A stretch of DNA of 25,896 nucleotides from a virus. The notes beneath the pieces are model-generated. The model made no database searches and had not been told where the DNA came from. It saw only the letters and a list, made by a program, of their open reading frames with translations. The stretch covers positions 1 through 25,896 of the IMG/VR virus record IMGVR_UViG_3300005913_000079; one strand, given 5' to 3'. Positions 2,877-25,845 of this stretch are shown here, piece after piece (position 1 is the first letter of the stretch; each line of letters starts with the position of its first letter). The position numbers were made by a program, and so were the translations under genes.

Positions 2877-3491
2877 ATGAGTACAGAAATTATAAACCAG
2901 GTAGTAACCAGAGGTGCATTCGTAAGAGATACCACTGCAGAAATGATAGAAAATAGACAAGTTGAATTTGTTATTTCTTCTGAAGCTGTAGATTCTTATG
3001 GCACCGTTTTTAAAATGGATGGTTGGGATTTAAAAAGATATGTTAGCAATCCTATTGTAGCTTATCAACACAGGGCAGGTTCAGATGATCCTGATGATAT
3101 CATTGGCACGTCTACTGTAAGAATAGAAGATGGTAAGCTAATTGGCGTTGTGACCTTTGAGCCTGCAGATATCAACGAAAAAGCAGAAAAAGTTTTTAGA
3201 AAAATACAAGCAGGAACTTTAAAGATGGCATCAATTAGTGCTAGACCATCCGAATATCGTTTTGGTGACGAATCTAAAGGCGAAGATAAAGATGTGTTGT
3301 ATTTCACGCGTCAAGAATTAATGGAATGGTCGGTGGTTTCTATAGGATCCAATCCAGATGCACAGAAAAGAAATGCACAAACAATAAATGAAATAAGAAC
3401 TTCTTTAGTTCAAGTTGTAAAAGACAAACGAAATGTGCGTGAAGCGCAGTTAATTATAAATAAAAATAAAGTGTATCATGAAAAAATCTAA
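2877..3491 (+). CDS. HK97-type prohead protease (peptidase S78/U35)
   Basis: A 204-residue prohead maturation protease, which cleaves the delta domain of the capsid protein and itself during head assembly. The conserved core runs from RQVEFVISSEAVDSYG (~28-42) to about residue 165. The catalytic His is in AYQHRAGSD (His65) and the Ser in MASISARPSEY (Ser119 or Ser121), followed by LMEWSVVSIGSNP, which matches the family segment W-S-x-V-x-x-G-S-N-P. Its end overlaps the capsid start by 14 nt, which implies translational coupling of protease and capsid. Confidence 0.93.
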   Translation: MSTEIINQVVTRGAFVRDTTAEMIENRQVEFVISSEAVDSYGTVFKMDGWDLKRYVSNPIVAYQHRAGSDDPDDIIGTSTVRIEDGKLIGVVTFEPADINEKAEKVFRKIQAGTLKMASISARPSEYRFGDESKGEDKDVLYFTRQELMEWSVVSIGSNPDAQKRNAQTINEIRTSLVQVVKDKRNVREAQLIINKNKVYHEKI

Positions 3492-4797
3492 CGATTTAAA
3501 ACAATTACGCGCTTCAAAATTCGACGCGCAAACAGCAATTAATACCGCTGTTCAAGCAAGAGCAGAAGGTGAGAGATCTTGGTCTGCAGATGAAGAAACC
3601 CGTTTCGATGCTTTGCAGCTAGAAATTGATGATTTAGACAAGCAGATTGTAAGAGCAGAAAAGTTTGAAGCAAACCAAAGAGCAGCAGCAGGAGCAAGCG
3701 GCGTTCCTGTAGGCGGTGGTGAGCAAAGAGAGCACGAAAAAATGAAAAAGCGTTATGACTTTCATAAAGCAATTCGTTCTCAAATGCCAAACGGTACTTT
3801 AGACGGTGTAGAATTAGAAATTCACCAAGAAACAAGTAAAAGAGCAGAAGCTGCAGGTGTAGCTATTTCTGGAATTGCAATACCAACAAATTACACAGAA
3901 AAAAGAGCAGACGGTTCAACCGTTACGCAGGATTCTGGTAATTTTGGAGCTAATTTAGTAGATACAAACTTAATGTCGCCTATCGAGTTTTTAAGACCAA
4001 CTCCAATTGTAGAAAGTTTGGGTGCAAGATTTATGGGTAACTTAACCGGTAACTTAAAATTTCCTACAAATGGCGGTGGAATTTCTGGAGCTTGGGAAGG
4101 CGAAATTGATGAAAGTACAAATTCAAAAAATGCGTTTGGAAGTAAAGAAATGAAACCAAACAGATATGCAGTTGCTGCGTTGCTTTCTATGCAGAATTTA
4201 ATGCAATCTTCTGTTGATTTGCAAATGTTTACCGTTCAAGATATTAGAAATGTAATTGCAAACGCAATTGATTTGGCAGCCATTAATGGTGCAGGTTCTT
4301 CTAATGTGCCAGAAGGTATTTTAAATACTACTGGCATCGGTTCAATTGTAGGTGGTACTAATGGTGCTGCGCCAACTTGGGCAAATGTTGTAGGTTTAGA
4401 AACTTCTATTTATACACAAAATGCAGCTTCGGCAAATATGGCGTATTTAATTAATCCAGGAACAAAAGGAAAATTAAAAACTACCCCGCATGAAACTGGT
4501 TCTGGTGATCTTGGTTATTTAATGACCGGGCAAAATGAAATTAATGGTTATAAAGTTGGGGTTTCTAATCATGTACCAGGTAATTTAACAAAAGGATCAT
4601 CTAACGGTGTTGCAAACGCTGCAATCTTCGGAGATTTTTCACAGTTATTAATTGGTCAATGGGCATTTTTAGATATTACAGTTGATAATATTTCTAAAAA
4701 GAAATCTGGTTATGTAGAAATTATTGTTAACACATTTATAGATACATTAATTAGACAGCCAAAAGCTTTTTCAGCAGTAAAAGACTGGTTACTATAA
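3478..4797 (+). CDS. major capsid protein, HK97 fold, with fused scaffold (delta) domain
   Basis: A 439-residue major capsid protein. Residues ~1-75 are a charged coiled coil (the delta or scaffolding domain removed by the protease). A G/A-rich linker with AAGASGVPVGGGEQ follows, and from ~150 on the HK97-fold shell domain is seen, with LMSPIEFLRP, ALLSMQNLMQSSVDLQ, AINGAGSSNVPEGILN and the C-terminal VGVSNHVP...AIFGDFSQLLIGQW. The segment from AINGAG to the end is characteristic of HK97-like capsids. It overlaps the protease gene by 14 nt and is followed by a strong intrinsic terminator, fitting the need for far more capsid than connector proteins. Confidence 0.95.
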   Translation: MKKSNDLKQLRASKFDAQTAINTAVQARAEGERSWSADEETRFDALQLEIDDLDKQIVRAEKFEANQRAAAGASGVPVGGGEQREHEKMKKRYDFHKAIRSQMPNGTLDGVELEIHQETSKRAEAAGVAISGIAIPTNYTEKRADGSTVTQDSGNFGANLVDTNLMSPIEFLRPTPIVESLGARFMGNLTGNLKFPTNGGGISGAWEGEIDESTNSKNAFGSKEMKPNRYAVAALLSMQNLMQSSVDLQMFTVQDIRNVIANAIDLAAINGAGSSNVPEGILNTTGIGSIVGGTNGAAPTWANVVGLETSIYTQNAASANMAYLINPGTKGKLKTTPHETGSGDLGYLMTGQNEINGYKVGVSNHVPGNLTKGSSNGVANAAIFGDFSQLLIGQWAFLDITVDNISKKKSGYVEIIVNTFIDTLIRQPKAFSAVKDWLL

Positions 4798-6769: not shown

Positions 6770-7174
6770 ATGGCTTTCGATTACACAGGATCTGCAATGC
6801 GAATTATGCTTGCAACAAAAGAAATTTTGCACGAGATAGATTTCTCCTACGGTGCATCAACAGAGTTTCAAGAATTAGCATCTAAAGATATAGAAAATGC
6901 GGTAAATGCGGGCAAAAGTACTTTTACTTTATCTGGCAACGGGTACGCAGATAATTCGGCTGATGATGCGCAGGTAGACATCAAAGCATTGTTTGCTTGG
7001 CGTGCAGCAAAAGATTCTAAAGCATTTACAATTGCAGACGGTGTGTCTGGTAACTTGTCTATTGCAGGTACTGCTTATTTAGAAAGTATGGAAATTCAAG
7101 GAACTCATAATGAAGTTGTAACCTATTCTTTTACTTTAAAAGTAACTGCTTCAACCGTTGGTGAAACTGCATAA
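6770..7174 (+). CDS. major tail (tube) protein
   Basis: A 134-residue tail tube subunit of the small TP901-1/Bacteroidota type. It begins MAFDYTGSAMRIML, has a central TLSGNGYADNSADDAQVDIKALFAW segment, and ends with SGNLSIAGTAYLESMEIQGTHNEVVTYSFTLKVTAS, the last two strands being typical of tail-tube proteins that make the inter-subunit sheet. It sits between the tail terminator and the gpG/gpGT chaperones as in most siphoviruses. It is followed by a 129-bp gap with a long perfect hairpin, which probably keeps this highly expressed transcript distinct. Confidence 0.85.
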   Translation: MAFDYTGSAMRIMLATKEILHEIDFSYGASTEFQELASKDIENAVNAGKSTFTLSGNGYADNSADDAQVDIKALFAWRAAKDSKAFTIADGVSGNLSIAGTAYLESMEIQGTHNEVVTYSFTLKVTASTVGETA

Positions 7175-13546: not shown

Positions 13547-14689
13547 ATGAGTTTAGTTAAAAGAGGTTCAAAGGGTAGTCCTGTTTCTGCAACAGAATAC
13601 GATGGTGTGGTAACGCAGGTGTTGGCCAATGAATCAAAATCTTTAGCGAACGAGGTGGCAATTGGTTCAATTTCACAGGGTACGGGTGTTAGCAAGGCAA
13701 CCAGAGCAGCTGCAATGGCAACAAATCCTTTACCTTTAAAGGGTATTCCTTTTGTTGTTTTTAATGAAGTTGGGCATAATGGACAATATCGATATAATTC
13801 TGACGCTATTGACGGCTATGATTTAATTTATTTGTTCTTGGTTGTGGATGCTACTGCAGTGAATGGTTCTTCAAATCCTGTTAGTAGTAATGATTTGTTT
13901 GATAAGAATAAAGTTTTACAAGATAATATTGATGCAGAAGAAACTGCAAGAGCATCCGCAGACACTACTTTGCAAAATAATATTAATGCTAAATTAAATC
14001 AAGGATCGTATGTCGGTAATGCTGCTAATTTAAAGGCGAGTATTGATGATAAATTACCAAGAGGAACATATACAGGTGGAGGCTCTGATTTAGATTCAAG
14101 AATTAGTGCTAATTTAAATTTTATAAATGCAATTAATAATTTACTAACTTCTGATGACGTTGATTTAAATCAGTTACAAGAGTTGGTGGATTTTATTAAG
14201 CAAAATAAAGATGATTTAGATGATTTAACAATTTCTAATATTTCAGGATTAGTAGATGCTTTAGACAGTATTAGACAAAATTTTGCATCCGCAGACACTA
14301 CTTTGCAAAACAATATTTCAGCAGAAGAAACAGCAAGAATACTAGCCGATAGTAAGTTAAGAACCAAAGGAGAATTCACATATCATTCTGTACAGAATAC
14401 TGCATTAGTTTTAGATATAGCTTTAAGAGGGCGTTTTACAGCTTTCTTTTCAAATGATCCTATAACAGTAACTATTAATTCAGATTCTTTTCCTACTAAC
14501 GGAAATATAGGTTACATAGATCAGTCTGGTAACGGAGTTATAACCTTTGTTGCTGGTGCGGGTGTAACATTACAAAAACATGCAAGCGTGCAATTAGTAT
14601 CCGATGGTATCTATAGCACCGTTAGTGTAATGAAGGTAGGTGCAGACAACTACAGATTATTTGGCCATTTAAAACAAGAAGAATTTTAA
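13547..14689 (+). CDS. tail fibre-like structural protein
   Basis: A 380-residue protein with the make-up of a tail fibre. The N-terminal ~110 residues are a compact domain likely to attach to the tail tip. Residues ~120-280 contain heptad-like segments with repeated motifs (AEETARASADTTLQNNINAK and ASADTTLQNNISAEETARILADSKL) typical of trimeric coiled-coil or beta-helix shafts. The C-terminal ~95 residues form a beta-rich head domain (FTYHSVQNTALVLDIALRGRFTAFF, GNIGYIDQSGNGVITFVAGAGVTLQ), a pattern common in Bacteroidota phage fibres. The duplicated shaft motif corresponds to an exact 26-bp DNA repeat (13952-13977, 14285-14310). Confidence 0.8.
   Translation: MSLVKRGSKGSPVSATEYDGVVTQVLANESKSLANEVAIGSISQGTGVSKATRAAAMATNPLPLKGIPFVVFNEVGHNGQYRYNSDAIDGYDLIYLFLVVDATAVNGSSNPVSSNDLFDKNKVLQDNIDAEETARASADTTLQNNINAKLNQGSYVGNAANLKASIDDKLPRGTYTGGGSDLDSRISANLNFINAINNLLTSDDVDLNQLQELVDFIKQNKDDLDDLTISNISGLVDALDSIRQNFASADTTLQNNISAEETARILADSKLRTKGEFTYHSVQNTALVLDIALRGRFTAFFSNDPITVTINSDSFPTNGNIGYIDQSGNGVITFVAGAGVTLQKHASVQLVSDGIYSTVSVMKVGADNYRLFGHLKQEEF
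13952..14310 (+). repeat. exact 26-bp direct repeat inside the fibre gene
   Basis: Bases 13952-13977 and 14285-14310 are identical (starting GCATCCGCAGACACTACTTT). Both encode the ASADTTLQN motif in the same frame. Recombination between them would remove 333 bp (111 codons) in frame and shorten the fibre shaft. Confidence 0.85.
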
Positions 14690-18559: not shown

Positions 18560-18590
18560 ATTCAAAAACGTGACAAAAAAAAGACAATCT

Positions 18591-19778
18591 ATGAGGTATA
18601 AATTAAGATTAGATGCTAGAATTAATCAAAAAAGAAAGAACGGATATCCGGTTTCTGTTTTCTTGTCTGATAAAGGTGGTGTAAAAAAAGTGAATTTAGG
18701 TTTGTTTTTTGAGAAAAAAGAATGGAACTTTAAAACGCAAATGCCGAAAACCGATAAAAAATTATTTATTATTATTCTGAAAAAAAGACAGATTTTAGAA
18801 AATATTTTGATTGATATTGTATCAGGTGAAAAATATAATTTGGAGCGCGTGAAAAATATTTTGCTAAATGAGGTTGAAACCATAAATACAAATTCTTTTT
18901 TTGAGTTCTATTTGCAGTTTAATGCCGAAAAACACAAAGCAGGCAAAATTGCAACTGCAAAAAGCTATGAGAATGCCTATAATATTTTAAAAGTCTTTAG
19001 AGACGATGTTTTGTTTGATGAAATAAACTATAATTTATTAAATGACTTTAAAAATTGGCGCGTACAAATTGGTAATTCAAAATCTACAGTGCACACTTAT
19101 TTAAGAAAATACAGAGCGGTTTACAATGAAGCCTGCAGAAGAAATTTTACTACAGATTCAAAGCCTTTCGAGGGTGTTTTTAAAAATATAACAGTAAAAG
19201 CAAACAGGACCAAAAAAAGGAACCTGACAAAAGAAGCTATAAAAAAACTCGAAGGGGTTTCTGGCTTAACCATGTATCATCAGCGAGCCGTAGATTTATT
19301 TTTGCTAATGTTTTACTTTGGTGGCCAAGATTTGAAAGATATCTACTATTTAGAGCATCAACAAATAAATAAAAACAGAGTTTATTTTATGCGTGGCAAA
19401 TTGTCTGGCAATGGGTACCAATTTGATTTGCAAATTACAGATAAAGCGCAAAAAATTATAAATAAGTACCAGGTAACGGGTAAATTTGTGTTTCCATGGA
19501 GAAAAGATTTTGATGGTTACAAAAGTTTTCGCGACAATTTAAGGCGTTCTTTAGATTTGGTGCAAACTTTAACAGCTATCGAGGTGCAGCCATTGGGCGG
19601 TAAAATTCGTATAAAAGTAGCTCGGCACACTTTTGCAAATATTGGTAAACAGCTTTATTTAGATACCGATTTGCTGCGCGAATTAATGGGACATGAACGT
19701 AATGATGTGGATACGATTTACAAAGATCGTTTTCCAGAGGCGGTGCGGGATGAAGCGCATTTAAAAATTATTCAATAA
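18591..19778 (+). CDS. int: phage integrase (tyrosine recombinase, Bacteroidota/IntDOT-like type)
   Basis: A 395-residue integrase: arm-binding domain (~1-95, with NGYPVSVFLSDKGGVKKVNLGLFFEKKEWN), SAM-like core-binding domain (~103-200, FFEFYLQFNAEKHKAGKIATAKSYENAYNIL) and catalytic domain (~212-385). Lys270 (MRGKLSG), Arg345-His346 (VARHTFA), His368 (MGHERN) and the nucleophile Tyr377 (TIYKDRF) are visible. The usual Arg I position reads FYFGGQDLKDI with no arginine, and the HxxR histidine is Lys342; both are seen in IntDOT-like enzymes. A GTG at 18570 would add 7 residues, but it lies only ~11 bp after the -7 element, so ATG 18591 is preferred. It acts at the adjacent attP to insert into tRNA-Arg. 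Confidence 0.92.
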   Translation: MRYKLRLDARINQKRKNGYPVSVFLSDKGGVKKVNLGLFFEKKEWNFKTQMPKTDKKLFIIILKKRQILENILIDIVSGEKYNLERVKNILLNEVETINTNSFFEFYLQFNAEKHKAGKIATAKSYENAYNILKVFRDDVLFDEINYNLLNDFKNWRVQIGNSKSTVHTYLRKYRAVYNEACRRNFTTDSKPFEGVFKNITVKANRTKKRNLTKEAIKKLEGVSGLTMYHQRAVDLFLLMFYFGGQDLKDIYYLEHQQINKNRVYFMRGKLSGNGYQFDLQITDKAQKIINKYQVTGKFVFPWRKDFDGYKSFRDNLRRSLDLVQTLTAIEVQPLGGKIRIKVARHTFANIGKQLYLDTDLLRELMGHERNDVDTIYKDRFPEAVRDEAHLKIIQ

Positions 19779-23376: not shown

Positions 23377-24123
23377 ATGAAGTATAATATTGTAATTAAT
23401 CAAAAAATTTGCGTGGAGCATGAAATTAGTTTTAAAGCCGCTGCGCTTTTAGATCTATTTTCTGAATTGTCTACTTGGGCTAATCCGCAGGTTTTTGAAG
23501 ATGGCGTATATTATCAGATAGCATACAATAAAATTTTAACAAGTTTACCGCTTGTTTTTTCTAAAAAAGATACCATGTATCGGTTTATAAAAGAGCTTAA
23601 AGAAAAGGGGTTTATTGAGCAGACAAAAAAGGGTATTAATCAGCAAAATTTTATCAGATTATCACCCAAAGCAAAGAGTGTTTTAAGGGTCGGAAAAATT
23701 TCCGAACCTTATCAAGGGTCGGAAAAATATCCGCCAAGGGTCGGAAAAATATCCGAAACTTCAAAAGTACCTCAAACTCCTGCTATCATTGAAAAGGTTG
23801 TTCAAGGGTCGGAAAAATTTCCGACATATACTAATACTACTATCAATAATAATATATATATAGATTTTTTAGCGTATCAATTTCTTCAAAAAAATGCTAA
23901 AGAACAGATCGATATCTGGGAAATGCAAAACAAAGAAACTGTTCAAGATTATACCTTCTTTTTAAAATATTTTGAAGCATCGGTTGAAGAAGATGAAATC
24001 GAATTTTCTGTTGGAAAATTAATGGGCAGATTAAAAAAGTTAAAATTTAATTGGAATCCAAGAAAAACAAATAATAGTTCATTTAACGATCAACCTATAA
24101 AAAAAGCAAAAAGAATTGGATAA
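23377..24123 (+). CDS. replication initiator with winged-helix domain and in-gene origin
   Basis: A 248-residue protein. Residues ~18-98 are a winged helix-turn-helix (SFKAAALLDLFSELSTWA..., FSKKDTMYRFIKELKEKGFIEQTKKGINQQNFIRLS). Residues ~104-150 are a low-complexity linker encoded by four iterons. Residues ~160-248 are a helical C-terminal domain ending in a basic tail. This is the plan of lambda O: DNA-binding N-terminus, origin DNA within the linker codons, and a C-terminus that recruits the helicase. The next gene, overlapping by 8 nt, is a DnaB helicase, which supports the reading. It might also be annotated as DnaD-like or RepA-like. Confidence 0.85.
   Translation: MKYNIVINQKICVEHEISFKAAALLDLFSELSTWANPQVFEDGVYYQIAYNKILTSLPLVFSKKDTMYRFIKELKEKGFIEQTKKGINQQNFIRLSPKAKSVLRVGKISEPYQGSEKYPPRVGKISETSKVPQTPAIIEKVVQGSEKFPTYTNTTINNNIYIDFLAYQFLQKNAKEQIDIWEMQNKETVQDYTFFLKYFEASVEEDEIEFSVGKLMGRLKKLKFNWNPRKTNNSSFNDQPIKKAKRIG
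23685..23824 (+). repeat. four 21-bp iterons (putative phage replication origin)
   Basis: AAGGGTCGGAAAAATwTCCG occurs at 23685-23704, 23714-23733, 23736-23755 and 23804-23823 (w = T, A, A, T), in one orientation, with a CGGA...TCCG inverted core. Two copies are read as RVGKISE and two as QGSEKYP/QGSEKFP, i.e. in different frames. The DNA is kept, not the peptide, as expected for binding sites of the initiator encoded by the same gene. Confidence 0.9.
23825..23870 (+). other. AT-rich stretch next to the iterons (possible unwinding element)
   Basis: Right after the fourth iteron the sequence is nearly pure A/T for about 45 bp, with a run of alternating AT (ATAATATATATATAG around 23848-23862) and then T6. 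It is still inside the initiator gene. Beside iterons this is the usual place for the DNA-unwinding element. Confidence 0.7.
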
Positions 24124-25525
24124 AAAACTTACACTATCAGAAAAAGGAAAGATACCACCACAGGCGTTAGATTTTGAAAACGCGGTTCTTGGAGCAATGC
24201 TAATCGATTCTAGCGCTTTAGTTACTGCAATGGATATTTTAAGGGCAGAATTCTTTTACCTTCCAAAAAATGAAGCCGTATTTAAGGCGATGAAAAGCTT
24301 ACACGATTCTAACTTTCCGATTGATTTAATTACAGTTTCTGAAAAATTAAAGAAGCTAAATCTTATAGATGTTGCAGGCGGACAAATGGCAATTGTAAAG
24401 CTATCTCAAGAAGTAGCTTCTGGCGCTAATATTCAATATCATTCTAGAATTATACAACAGCAGTATTTAAAAAGAGAGGTTATAAAGCTATCTTCTGCAG
24501 CAATATCTAAAGCATATCAAGATGATCAAGATGTGTTTGAATTGCTTGATTTTGTTGGTCAGCGAGTCGATGCGATCAACGATGTTGTTTCTGTTGGCTA
24601 TTCTTCGGATACTTGGTACGATGCTATGACTGCACTACCTGCAAGGATTGAATACTTAACAAATAATGAGGGTAAAATAACAGGATTACCAACAGGATTA
24701 GATGCTTTAGATAGGCATTTTAGTGGATGGCAACCAACAGATTTTATAGTGATTGGTGCAGACTCTGGAATGGGTAAAACTGCATTGGCAATGGAGTTTA
24801 TTTTGGCGCCTGCAAAGCAAGGTACTGCGGTTGGTATGTTCTCGATGGAAATGAGCGTACAACAGTTAGCTATTAGAGCAACAGCAGTAGAGTCTAACTT
24901 TCATATGAATCAGTTAATGCGAACTGGTTTTGAGAAGCCAGAATACTTTGAAACTTTAAATATTTTGGTGAGTGAAATGCGAGACTATCCAATTCATATA
25001 GATGATAAACCTGCTTTGACAGTGCCAGAAATGAAACGTAAAGCAAGAGCTTTAAAAAGAAAACATAATATAAAGCTTTTGGTTATTGACTTCTTGCAAA
25101 TGTTTTCTGGTGACAAAGAAATGCGCATAAATGTAGGTGAAGCAGCAAGAGAGTGCAAGAATTTAGCCAAGGAATTAAACATTCCTGTTATTGGATTGAG
25201 TCAGATATCAAGAGAGGTAAGAAAGTCAAAATACTTTCTGCCAAAGAAATACCACTTAAAAGAAGCGAGTGCAATCGAAGAGGCTGCAGATATCATAGGA
25301 ATGTTGTATAGACCTTCTTATTATGGTTACGAGTACATTGATGCAAGAGAGTTGTATGATGATATTCTAGGACTGCAGGAAGGTGAGAATGCAGCGTTAT
25401 TGGTAGAGAAAAACAGAAACGGGTCCATGGGTAATGTTGGTTTGCATTATATAGAAAACAAAACAAAGTTTACAAATGGTGTAGATTTTACTGTGCCGCC
25501 TAATCATGAAGATGTTCCTTATTAG
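24116..25525 (+). CDS. dnaB: replicative DNA helicase, DnaB type
   Basis: A 469-residue hexameric helicase. N-terminal DnaB domain at ~15-115 (PQALDFENAVLGAMLIDSSAL), linker, then the RecA-like ATPase domain: TGLPTGLDALDRHFSGWQ, Walker A ADSGMGKTAL (Lys221, Thr222), SMEMS, Walker B KLLVIDFLQM (Asp325), Gln sensor GLSQISREVRK (~360-370) and arginine finger region EKNRNG (~431-436). All key positions are present and the length is normal. The start is TTG at 24116, inside the initiator's last codons (8-nt overlap). The phage thus brings its own helicase and needs no lambda P-type loader for the host enzyme, although a loading step by the initiator is likely. Confidence 0.95.
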   Translation: MDKKLTLSEKGKIPPQALDFENAVLGAMLIDSSALVTAMDILRAEFFYLPKNEAVFKAMKSLHDSNFPIDLITVSEKLKKLNLIDVAGGQMAIVKLSQEVASGANIQYHSRIIQQQYLKREVIKLSSAAISKAYQDDQDVFELLDFVGQRVDAINDVVSVGYSSDTWYDAMTALPARIEYLTNNEGKITGLPTGLDALDRHFSGWQPTDFIVIGADSGMGKTALAMEFILAPAKQGTAVGMFSMEMSVQQLAIRATAVESNFHMNQLMRTGFEKPEYFETLNILVSEMRDYPIHIDDKPALTVPEMKRKARALKRKHNIKLLVIDFLQMFSGDKEMRINVGEAARECKNLAKELNIPVIGLSQISREVRKSKYFLPKKYHLKEASAIEEAADIIGMLYRPSYYGYEYIDARELYDDILGLQEGENAALLVEKNRNGSMGNVGLHYIENKTKFTNGVDFTVPPNHEDVPY

Positions 25526-25527
25526 TT

Positions 25528-25845
25528 ATGCCGACAATACCAACAGTTAAGAAGAAACCATGGACACAAGAGCATGTGCAGCACAAACGGATTAAAGATA
25601 TGCGTTGGTTCTACAACAGCCGTAAATGGAGGAGATATAGCAAGGATTATAAAGCAAGGAATCCTTTCTGTTTACAATGTGAAGAAGCTGGAATAGTAAA
25701 GCCTGCAAAGGTTACAGATCATTTAGAAACATACGAACAACAGCCAAAAGGTTTCGATTTAGATGCTTTGAATGATAAATATATGCAACCGCTTTGTAAA
25801 AAATGCCATGACAGCAAGTCGGGCAGAGAAGCGCACAAAAAGTGA
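25528..25845 (+). CDS. HNH endonuclease
   Basis: A 105-residue HNH nuclease with zinc pairs FCLQC (Cys48, Cys51) and LCKKC (Cys90, Cys93). The HNH core is VTDHL (Asp64-His65), ALNDKYMQPL (Asn82) and KKCHDSKS (His94). Small HNH proteins of this kind sit just before the terminase genes in many cos phages, such as HK97, where they are needed for specific genome cutting during packaging. The location here, next to the end of the window and before the (unseen) terminase, fits. It follows the helicase by 2 bp. Confidence 0.9.
   Translation: MPTIPTVKKKPWTQEHVQHKRIKDMRWFYNSRKWRRYSKDYKARNPFCLQCEEAGIVKPAKVTDHLETYEQQPKGFDLDALNDKYMQPLCKKCHDSKSGREAHKK

Follow-up and report, generated by a model that had tools for sequence, protein, structure and literature searches.

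A gene in a viral DNA of 25,896 nucleotides (IMG/VR record IMGVR_UViG_3300005913_000079; this whole stretch is referred to as the window) very probably encodes a replication initiator, and the middle third of the same gene very probably serves as the origin, to which the initiator's own N-terminal domain would bind. An initial annotation, made from the letters of the window, had proposed such an origin embedded in an initiator gene. We find this reading supported by repeats that are tied to the N-terminal domain, by AT-rich DNA that flanks them in nearly all relatives and by adjoining replication genes. The features concerned are listed in Table 1.

Table 1. Putative initiator gene, its origin elements and the genes that follow in the window.
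Feature	Positions	Strand	Basis or content
Putative replication initiator gene, 248 aa	23377..24123	+	ORF; PHROG replication initiation / O-like families; AlphaFold2 model
N-terminal winged-helix domain, residues 1 to about 102-106, predicted operator-binding	23377..23682	+	AlphaFold2; homologous N-domains
Site 1	23690..23705 (20-bp copy 23685-23704)	.	TCGGAAAAATTTCCGA, codon frame 2, VGKISE
Site 2	23719..23734 (20-bp copy 23714-23733)	.	TCGGAAAAATATCCGC, codon frame 1, SEKYP; one arm's outer base off
Site 3	23741..23756 (20-bp copy 23736-23755)	.	TCGGAAAAATATCCGA, codon frame 2, VGKISE
Site 4	23809..23824 (20-bp copy 23804-23823)	.	TCGGAAAAATTTCCGA, codon frame 1, SEKFPT
AT-rich block, 87% A+T, putative DNA-unwinding element	23824..23870	.	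Base composition
Helical C-terminal domain, residues 160-221	23854..24039	+	AlphaFold2 model; sequence comparison
DnaB-type replicative helicase	24116..25525	+	Pfam DnaB_C 1.3e-64, DnaB N-terminal 2.1e-26
HNH endonuclease	25528..25845	+	Initiator-DnaB-HNH order same in Cellulophaga phage phi39:1

Four copies of the motif AAGGGTCGGAAAAATwTCCG lie within the one ORF, at exactly the positions first reported for them, and the spacings of 29, 22 and then 68 bp from copy to copy hold as well. All four match AAGGGTCGGAAAAATWTCCG with zero mismatches, for an expectation of 0 in dinucleotide shuffles. The core of the motif is a 16-bp dyad, TCGGA-N6-TCCGA, and the array begins directly 3′ of the portion encoding the N-terminal winged-helix domain. 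In copy 2 the final base is C, not A. A fifth match, on the minus strand with three mismatches, is simply copy 1 read in reverse, because the core is palindromic. The 68-bp gap between sites 3 and 4 recurs in a relative from Flavobacterium lotistagni. Elsewhere in the window, a 33-bp direct repeat (13952-13984 and 14285-14317, 97% identical, 333 bp apart) lies within an ORF at 13547-14689, and this single phage record carries two different tyrosine-recombinase/integrase genes (166-969 and 18570-19778).

In an AlphaFold2 model, the encoded protein consists of an N-terminal winged helix, a disordered linker encoded by the operator DNA and a small helical C-terminal domain. The N-terminal domain (N-domain) is modelled with pLDDT values of 96-98 across residues 11-100, and the linker, with values of about 45-50, is predicted to be disordered and coincides with the operator DNA. 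The modelled recognition helix comprises residues 64-76 and has D65, T66, Y68 and R69 at its start; W34, A35, D65, T66 and R69 are invariant in 18 N-domain sequences. The C-terminal domain (C-domain), which likely contacts the helicase machinery, shows 36% identity to its counterpart in the F. lotistagni relative and resembles that of Cellulophaga phage phi39:1 gp41.

No Pfam or NCBIfam model names a domain of the kind found at the N-terminus of the window protein. Two PHROG families, phrog_25527 and phrog_11527, match this protein in its N-domain and linker, and they also match 27 of the 27 relatives tested; both are uncharacterised, and PHROG assigns them neither a function nor an operator. 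Relatives are also matched by PHROG replication-initiation families. The best Foldseek matches are initiator N-domains and a Rep-DNA complex (4pql, 4pt7 and 5kbj), with modest E values of 2e-4 to 1e-3, and TubR is also among the structural matches. For the same three structures VIA Z is 8.3-9.1, which is not above the values for MarR-type proteins. Because MarR-type regulators score equally, the fold alone does not decide function. No significant match came from a profile search of PDB sequences (best E 0.013).

A scan of viral contigs for GTCGGAAAAATWTCCG gave at least 119 stretches, mostly in DNA of 50-63% G+C, and the majority of these are arrays of four to eight near copies with spacings such as 22, 23, 35, 38 and 44 bp. 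Nearly all arrays of at least three copies lie inside one open frame and are translated in two or three frames. Protein searches revealed named relatives in Pseudomonas phages F116 and Medea1, Psychrobacter pOW20-A, Mannheimia 587AP2, Pseudoalteromonas Y7, Flavobacterium FCL-2, Parabacteroides PD691P4 and PD482P1 and a Leptotrichia plasmid, and in these TCGGA-N6-TCCGA or ACGGA-N6-TCCGA sites immediately follow the N-domain. The hosts of relatives include Bacteroidota, Pseudomonadota and Fusobacteriota. The initial assignment of the window to a Bacteroidota phage is probably right as to host, given a DnaB and a capsid whose nearest named relatives are those of phi39:1, but the system is no speciality of that phylum.

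For a protein-based test, viral contigs were searched with N-domain alignments only, and the set was enlarged by the named and genome relatives that protein searches had yielded. A few of the loci that seeded the alignments had initially come from the motif, and freedom from bias is good though imperfect. At least two CGGA-N6-TCCG sites occur within 250 bp after the domain for 67 of the 79 non-redundant N-domains, and at least three for 64, leaving nine with no such site. The flanks of the 79 relatives, which amount to 461 kb, hold three further sites. Among 287 sites, codon frames 1, 2 and 0 are used by 161, 78 and 48, respectively; the outer bases are T in 94% and A in 97%, with a predominantly A/T centre. 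Furthermore, eight loci with a related C-domain but another N-domain, including Elizabethkingia EKP1, Leeuwenhoekiella Arctus_1 and the mEpX1 lambda-O protein, contain no sites. Since the sites are absent where the N-domain differs despite a related C-domain, they go with the N-domain. C-domains themselves differ among relatives.

The palindrome alone was rejected as a marker of the N-domain, which is encoded by 21 of 117 genome stretches with two close copies of TCGGA-N6-TCCGA. Those lacking it either belong to chromosomal repeats, among others in Zoogloea and Verrucomicrobia, or resemble ordinary promoter operators. Loci L223, L241 and L143 (Verrucomicrobia) have units of TCGGA-N6-TCCGA type at 22-23 bp and no N-domain; they are of a different kind with similar spacing. 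The N-domain is rare in the bacterial genomes sampled: besides the seed, there are two remote matches in 396 genomes of the Flavobacterium order, two matches in 369 genomes of the Halomonas class and one weak match in 395 genomes of another phylum sample.

Several individual loci illustrate variation in the array. The array of Aureivirga marina (L144, about 6907-7018 of the reverse complement) looks as though it had lost one unit: its spacings are 29 and 68 bp, the third site at a spacing of 22 bp is missing, and the reading frame is interrupted within it. The Leptotrichia wadei plasmid pJMUB3934p2 (L260, 29.6 kb, about 4001-4450) has sites with a 5-bp centre as against 6 bp, and its initiator ends early, suggesting indels in the A-tract of the operator; this plasmid carries a Rha-type regulator and is phage-plasmid-like. 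Pseudomonas phage F116 (L127, NC_006552.1) has an uninterrupted initiator ORF with eight sites at 3001-4014, where the record annotates F116p31 and F116p32 and not the whole initiator gene.

The AT-rich block that the initial annotation saw after the repeats is present and compares with 68% A+T for the whole window. About 3% of all 60-mers in the window match the A+T richness of the 60 bp that follow site 4, and the block is therefore weak as evidence when taken alone. Across the family, the first 30 bp past the last site are more AT-rich than their own locus in 130 of 131 relatives. In Pseudomonas-type relatives (e.g. L014 and L243), 15-bp near-repeats of AATCAGGGTACCAGT lie directly after the array, within about 60 bp, and form a candidate unwinding element; ATACYA motifs resembling these near-repeats are present in other relatives. 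The last site of the array is in frame 1 in 124 of the 131 loci.

A DnaB gene does come next, as had been stated, and it overlaps the end of the initiator gene by 8 bases. By Pfam, the next gene encodes DnaB in the window, Psychrobacter, Dyadobacter and L082, lambda P in Mannheimia, Gilliamella, L275 and L050, and a Toprim/DnaB protein in L182. In some relatives the next gene matches no recognised replication gene, which counts against the origin reading. The suggested GC-skew check revealed no turn at the array and is uninformative for a 26-kb record whose completeness is unstated; promoter and terminator scans were likewise uninformative.

These features are most simply explained by a mechanism in which a dimer of the N-terminal winged helix would sit on each 16-bp TCGGA-N6-TCCGA palindrome. 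The half-sites would lie about one helical turn apart, and the commonest copy spacing, 22 bp, would correspond to two turns. Several bound dimers could then form an initiator complex that melts the downstream AT-rich DNA, while the C-terminal domain would help to load the phage DnaB, the product of the adjoining gene. The array also codes for the disordered linker that joins the two domains.

The palindromes and the winged-helix, MarR-like fold would also suit transcriptional operators, by which the protein autoregulates or silences an early operon and no origin is present. We consider this improbable, because the sites lie about 300 bp into the coding region and not upstream of it, with three others in the flanks, because AT-rich DNA and DnaB or lambda-P genes follow them, and because PHROG families label relatives as replication initiation proteins. 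The sites may nevertheless have a dual role in transcription control and as an origin. More improbable still is a role of the array in partition, as a centromere, or in maintenance of another kind, with the protein binding it as a winged helix like TubR/ParR. The gammaproteobacterial locus L257 (genome G542, 360-1001) has a ParA/MipZ-like ATPase next to the initiator and not a helicase or loader, which, together with the structural match to TubR, favours such a role; the other recognised neighbours, however, are DnaB, lambda P and Toprim/DnaB, and C-domains match lambda-O-type initiators.

The initial annotation had argued, from two frames that yield two peptides, that the DNA is under selection. 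Indeed, RVGKISE is the translation of copies 1 and 3, and copies 2 and 4 give QGSEKYP and QGSEKFP; the codon frames of the four are 2, 1, 2 and 1. We compared the cross-frame identity of the copies with a null model in which the protein is fixed and synonymous codons are drawn by the phage's own usage. The observed identity of 78/80 is never approached by such recoding (43.4 +/- 4.4, with a maximum of 62 in 100,000 trials). The sites also use codons that are rare in the phage, such as TCC (16 of 404 Ser) and GTC (13 of 343 Val). Homologues that keep the peptide and lose the DNA repeat had been named in advance as evidence to the contrary, and the opposite was found: in relatives the DNA repeat is constant and the peptide varies by frame (SEKYP, VGKIS or RKKIR), with all three frames in use. 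In the arrays of viral contigs, GSEKYP, RKKIR and VGKKS are all encoded by the same DNA word. The same DNA signal is kept whatever peptide it encodes, and therefore the DNA itself is preserved; repeats can fall in different frames because the linker can take any peptide that the DNA happens to encode. That the repeats serve the protein as a repeated linker peptide, spread by tandem duplication of unselected DNA, is scarcely credible: two pairs of copies do have a common frame and peptide, but the same DNA is read in three frames as three unrelated peptides at dozens of divergent loci that differ widely in G+C, the codon-preserving null is rejected and the linker is predicted to be disordered.

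The intragenic-origin architecture is already known. In lambda O/ori-lambda and the Stx phages P27 and 933W, the origin lies in the middle of the initiator gene and comprises four (to six) A-tract repeats followed by an AT-rich tract (PMC7466680). The plan of lambda ori, to which the window had been likened, holds as an analogy in its mid-gene iterons, adjoining AT-rich tract and order of N-domain, linker and C-domain (PMC7466680), and the C-domains of some relatives are related to that of the mEpX1 O protein. Whereas the helicase-loading gene comes next in lambda, the window has DnaB itself and not P, although P is next in some relatives. The operator also differs: it is TCGGA-N6-TCCGA here, and the family as a whole reads it in all three frames, as against one frame for the mEpX1 repeats that we examined. 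Moreover, the N-domain is not that of lambda O. PF04492 and TIGR01610 (Phage_rep_O) match neither the window protein nor its relatives (mEpX1 control, 5.7e-36), and a profile comparison of the window-type N-domain with the lambda-O-type N-domain of mEpX1 gave a probability of 0.2%.

The RepA_N plasmid pSK41 is an equally close parallel. Its N-terminal domain binds four Rep boxes within the gene that encodes it, and the centre of the protein, encoded by the ori, is a linker that replication does not require (PMC5703833). RepA_N iterons form semi-palindromes that converge on a poly-A tract, and 4PT7 is a RepA_N structure (PMC7145576). Like pSK41 and pTZ2162, the window has central in-gene boxes that are semi-palindromic round poly-A, here TCGGA-AAAATW-TCCGA in the linker, but its setting is a phage and its C-domain is another one. 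PF06970 (RepA_N) does not match the window protein and is absent among the 25 commonest of the 33 families matched by 18 N-domains (E <= 1). PLE RepA, unlike the window protein, has its sites in a non-coding region. By these sequence comparisons, the window initiator belongs to neither lambda O nor RepA_N. In the open-access literature we found, among the papers listed, no relevant one with the motif TCGGAAAAAT and none on the origins of F116 or FCL-2, and the papers found on iterons in frames or within genes concern lambda, PLE and plasmids, not this initiator family. Within the searchable open literature, three things appear to be new: the N-domain family as an initiator, its operator, which occurs in all frames and in three or more phyla, and the joint change of operator and recognition residue described below.

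In five of the nine site-less proteins KPDTxKR stands in place of DTxYR, with Lys for the Tyr at window residue 68, and the DNA of their linkers contains, in several frames, repeated GGGA-N6-TCCC or, in one case, CGTGA-N6-TCACG. In all data, 163 of the 166 non-redundant Tyr68 domains, a set that is partly motif-selected, have CGGA operators, and Lys68 occurs with GGGA (five) or GTGA (one) in six of six. Operator and recognition helix are thus altered jointly, and these exceptions add weight to the origin reading. The Lys68 proteins form one group in 88% of bootstrap trees, and their association with the operator may stem from a single evolutionary event. Among the remaining site-less proteins, L338 has lost both the DTxYR motif and the array, and L255, L256 and L258 are remote relatives.

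Cellulophaga phage phi39:1 (NC_021804), the nearest named relative of the window DnaB and capsid, has the same gene order and a similar C-terminal half of the initiator. In contrast, its gp41 is a PF13730-type initiator with a different helix-turn-helix N-domain, and the linker carries three copies of GACAAAATTGTC, 21/22 bp apart and in two frames, with no TCGGA-N6-TCCGA. Vibrio phage D279 (L421, 1345-2265) has an initiator with an unrelated N-domain and four GTGAC-N5-GTCAC palindromes in the linker, in two frames. In both phages another N-domain is accompanied by another repeat, and thus N-domain and operators appear to be replaced together. Frame-independent iterons may, on such sequences, be common among phage initiators. 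Exchange of a domain plus ori is known from pPR9 (PMC5703833). In the tree, N-domains from Bacteroidota and Pseudomonadota are partly intermingled, and that of F. lotistagni groups with Pseudomonadota ones (support 98/94). This relative has the spacing and frames of the window array, yet its N-domain is only 34% identical. We tentatively suggest, as a possibility that falls short of even odds, that the N-domain and its operators form an exchangeable cassette that crosses phyla and is fused to different helicase-loading C-domains, that one operator, TCGGA-N6-TCCGA, is common to unrelated phages of Bacteroidota, Pseudomonadota and Fusobacteriota, and that one residue of the recognition helix, by a change of Tyr68 to Lys, helps to set the second base of the operator.

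A single DNA word in all three codon frames offers an unusually clear natural proof of selection at the DNA level in a coding stretch, and the Tyr68/Lys68 switch provides a directly testable rule of protein-DNA recognition. Many of the named phages found carry the initiator gene as a 'hypothetical protein', and a search for the operator beside the N-domain is a simple way to locate the probable origin. If one operator is indeed common to unrelated phages, the initiator of one such phage could fire or block the origin of another, and prophages that reside in the same cell might cross-activate or interfere with one another.
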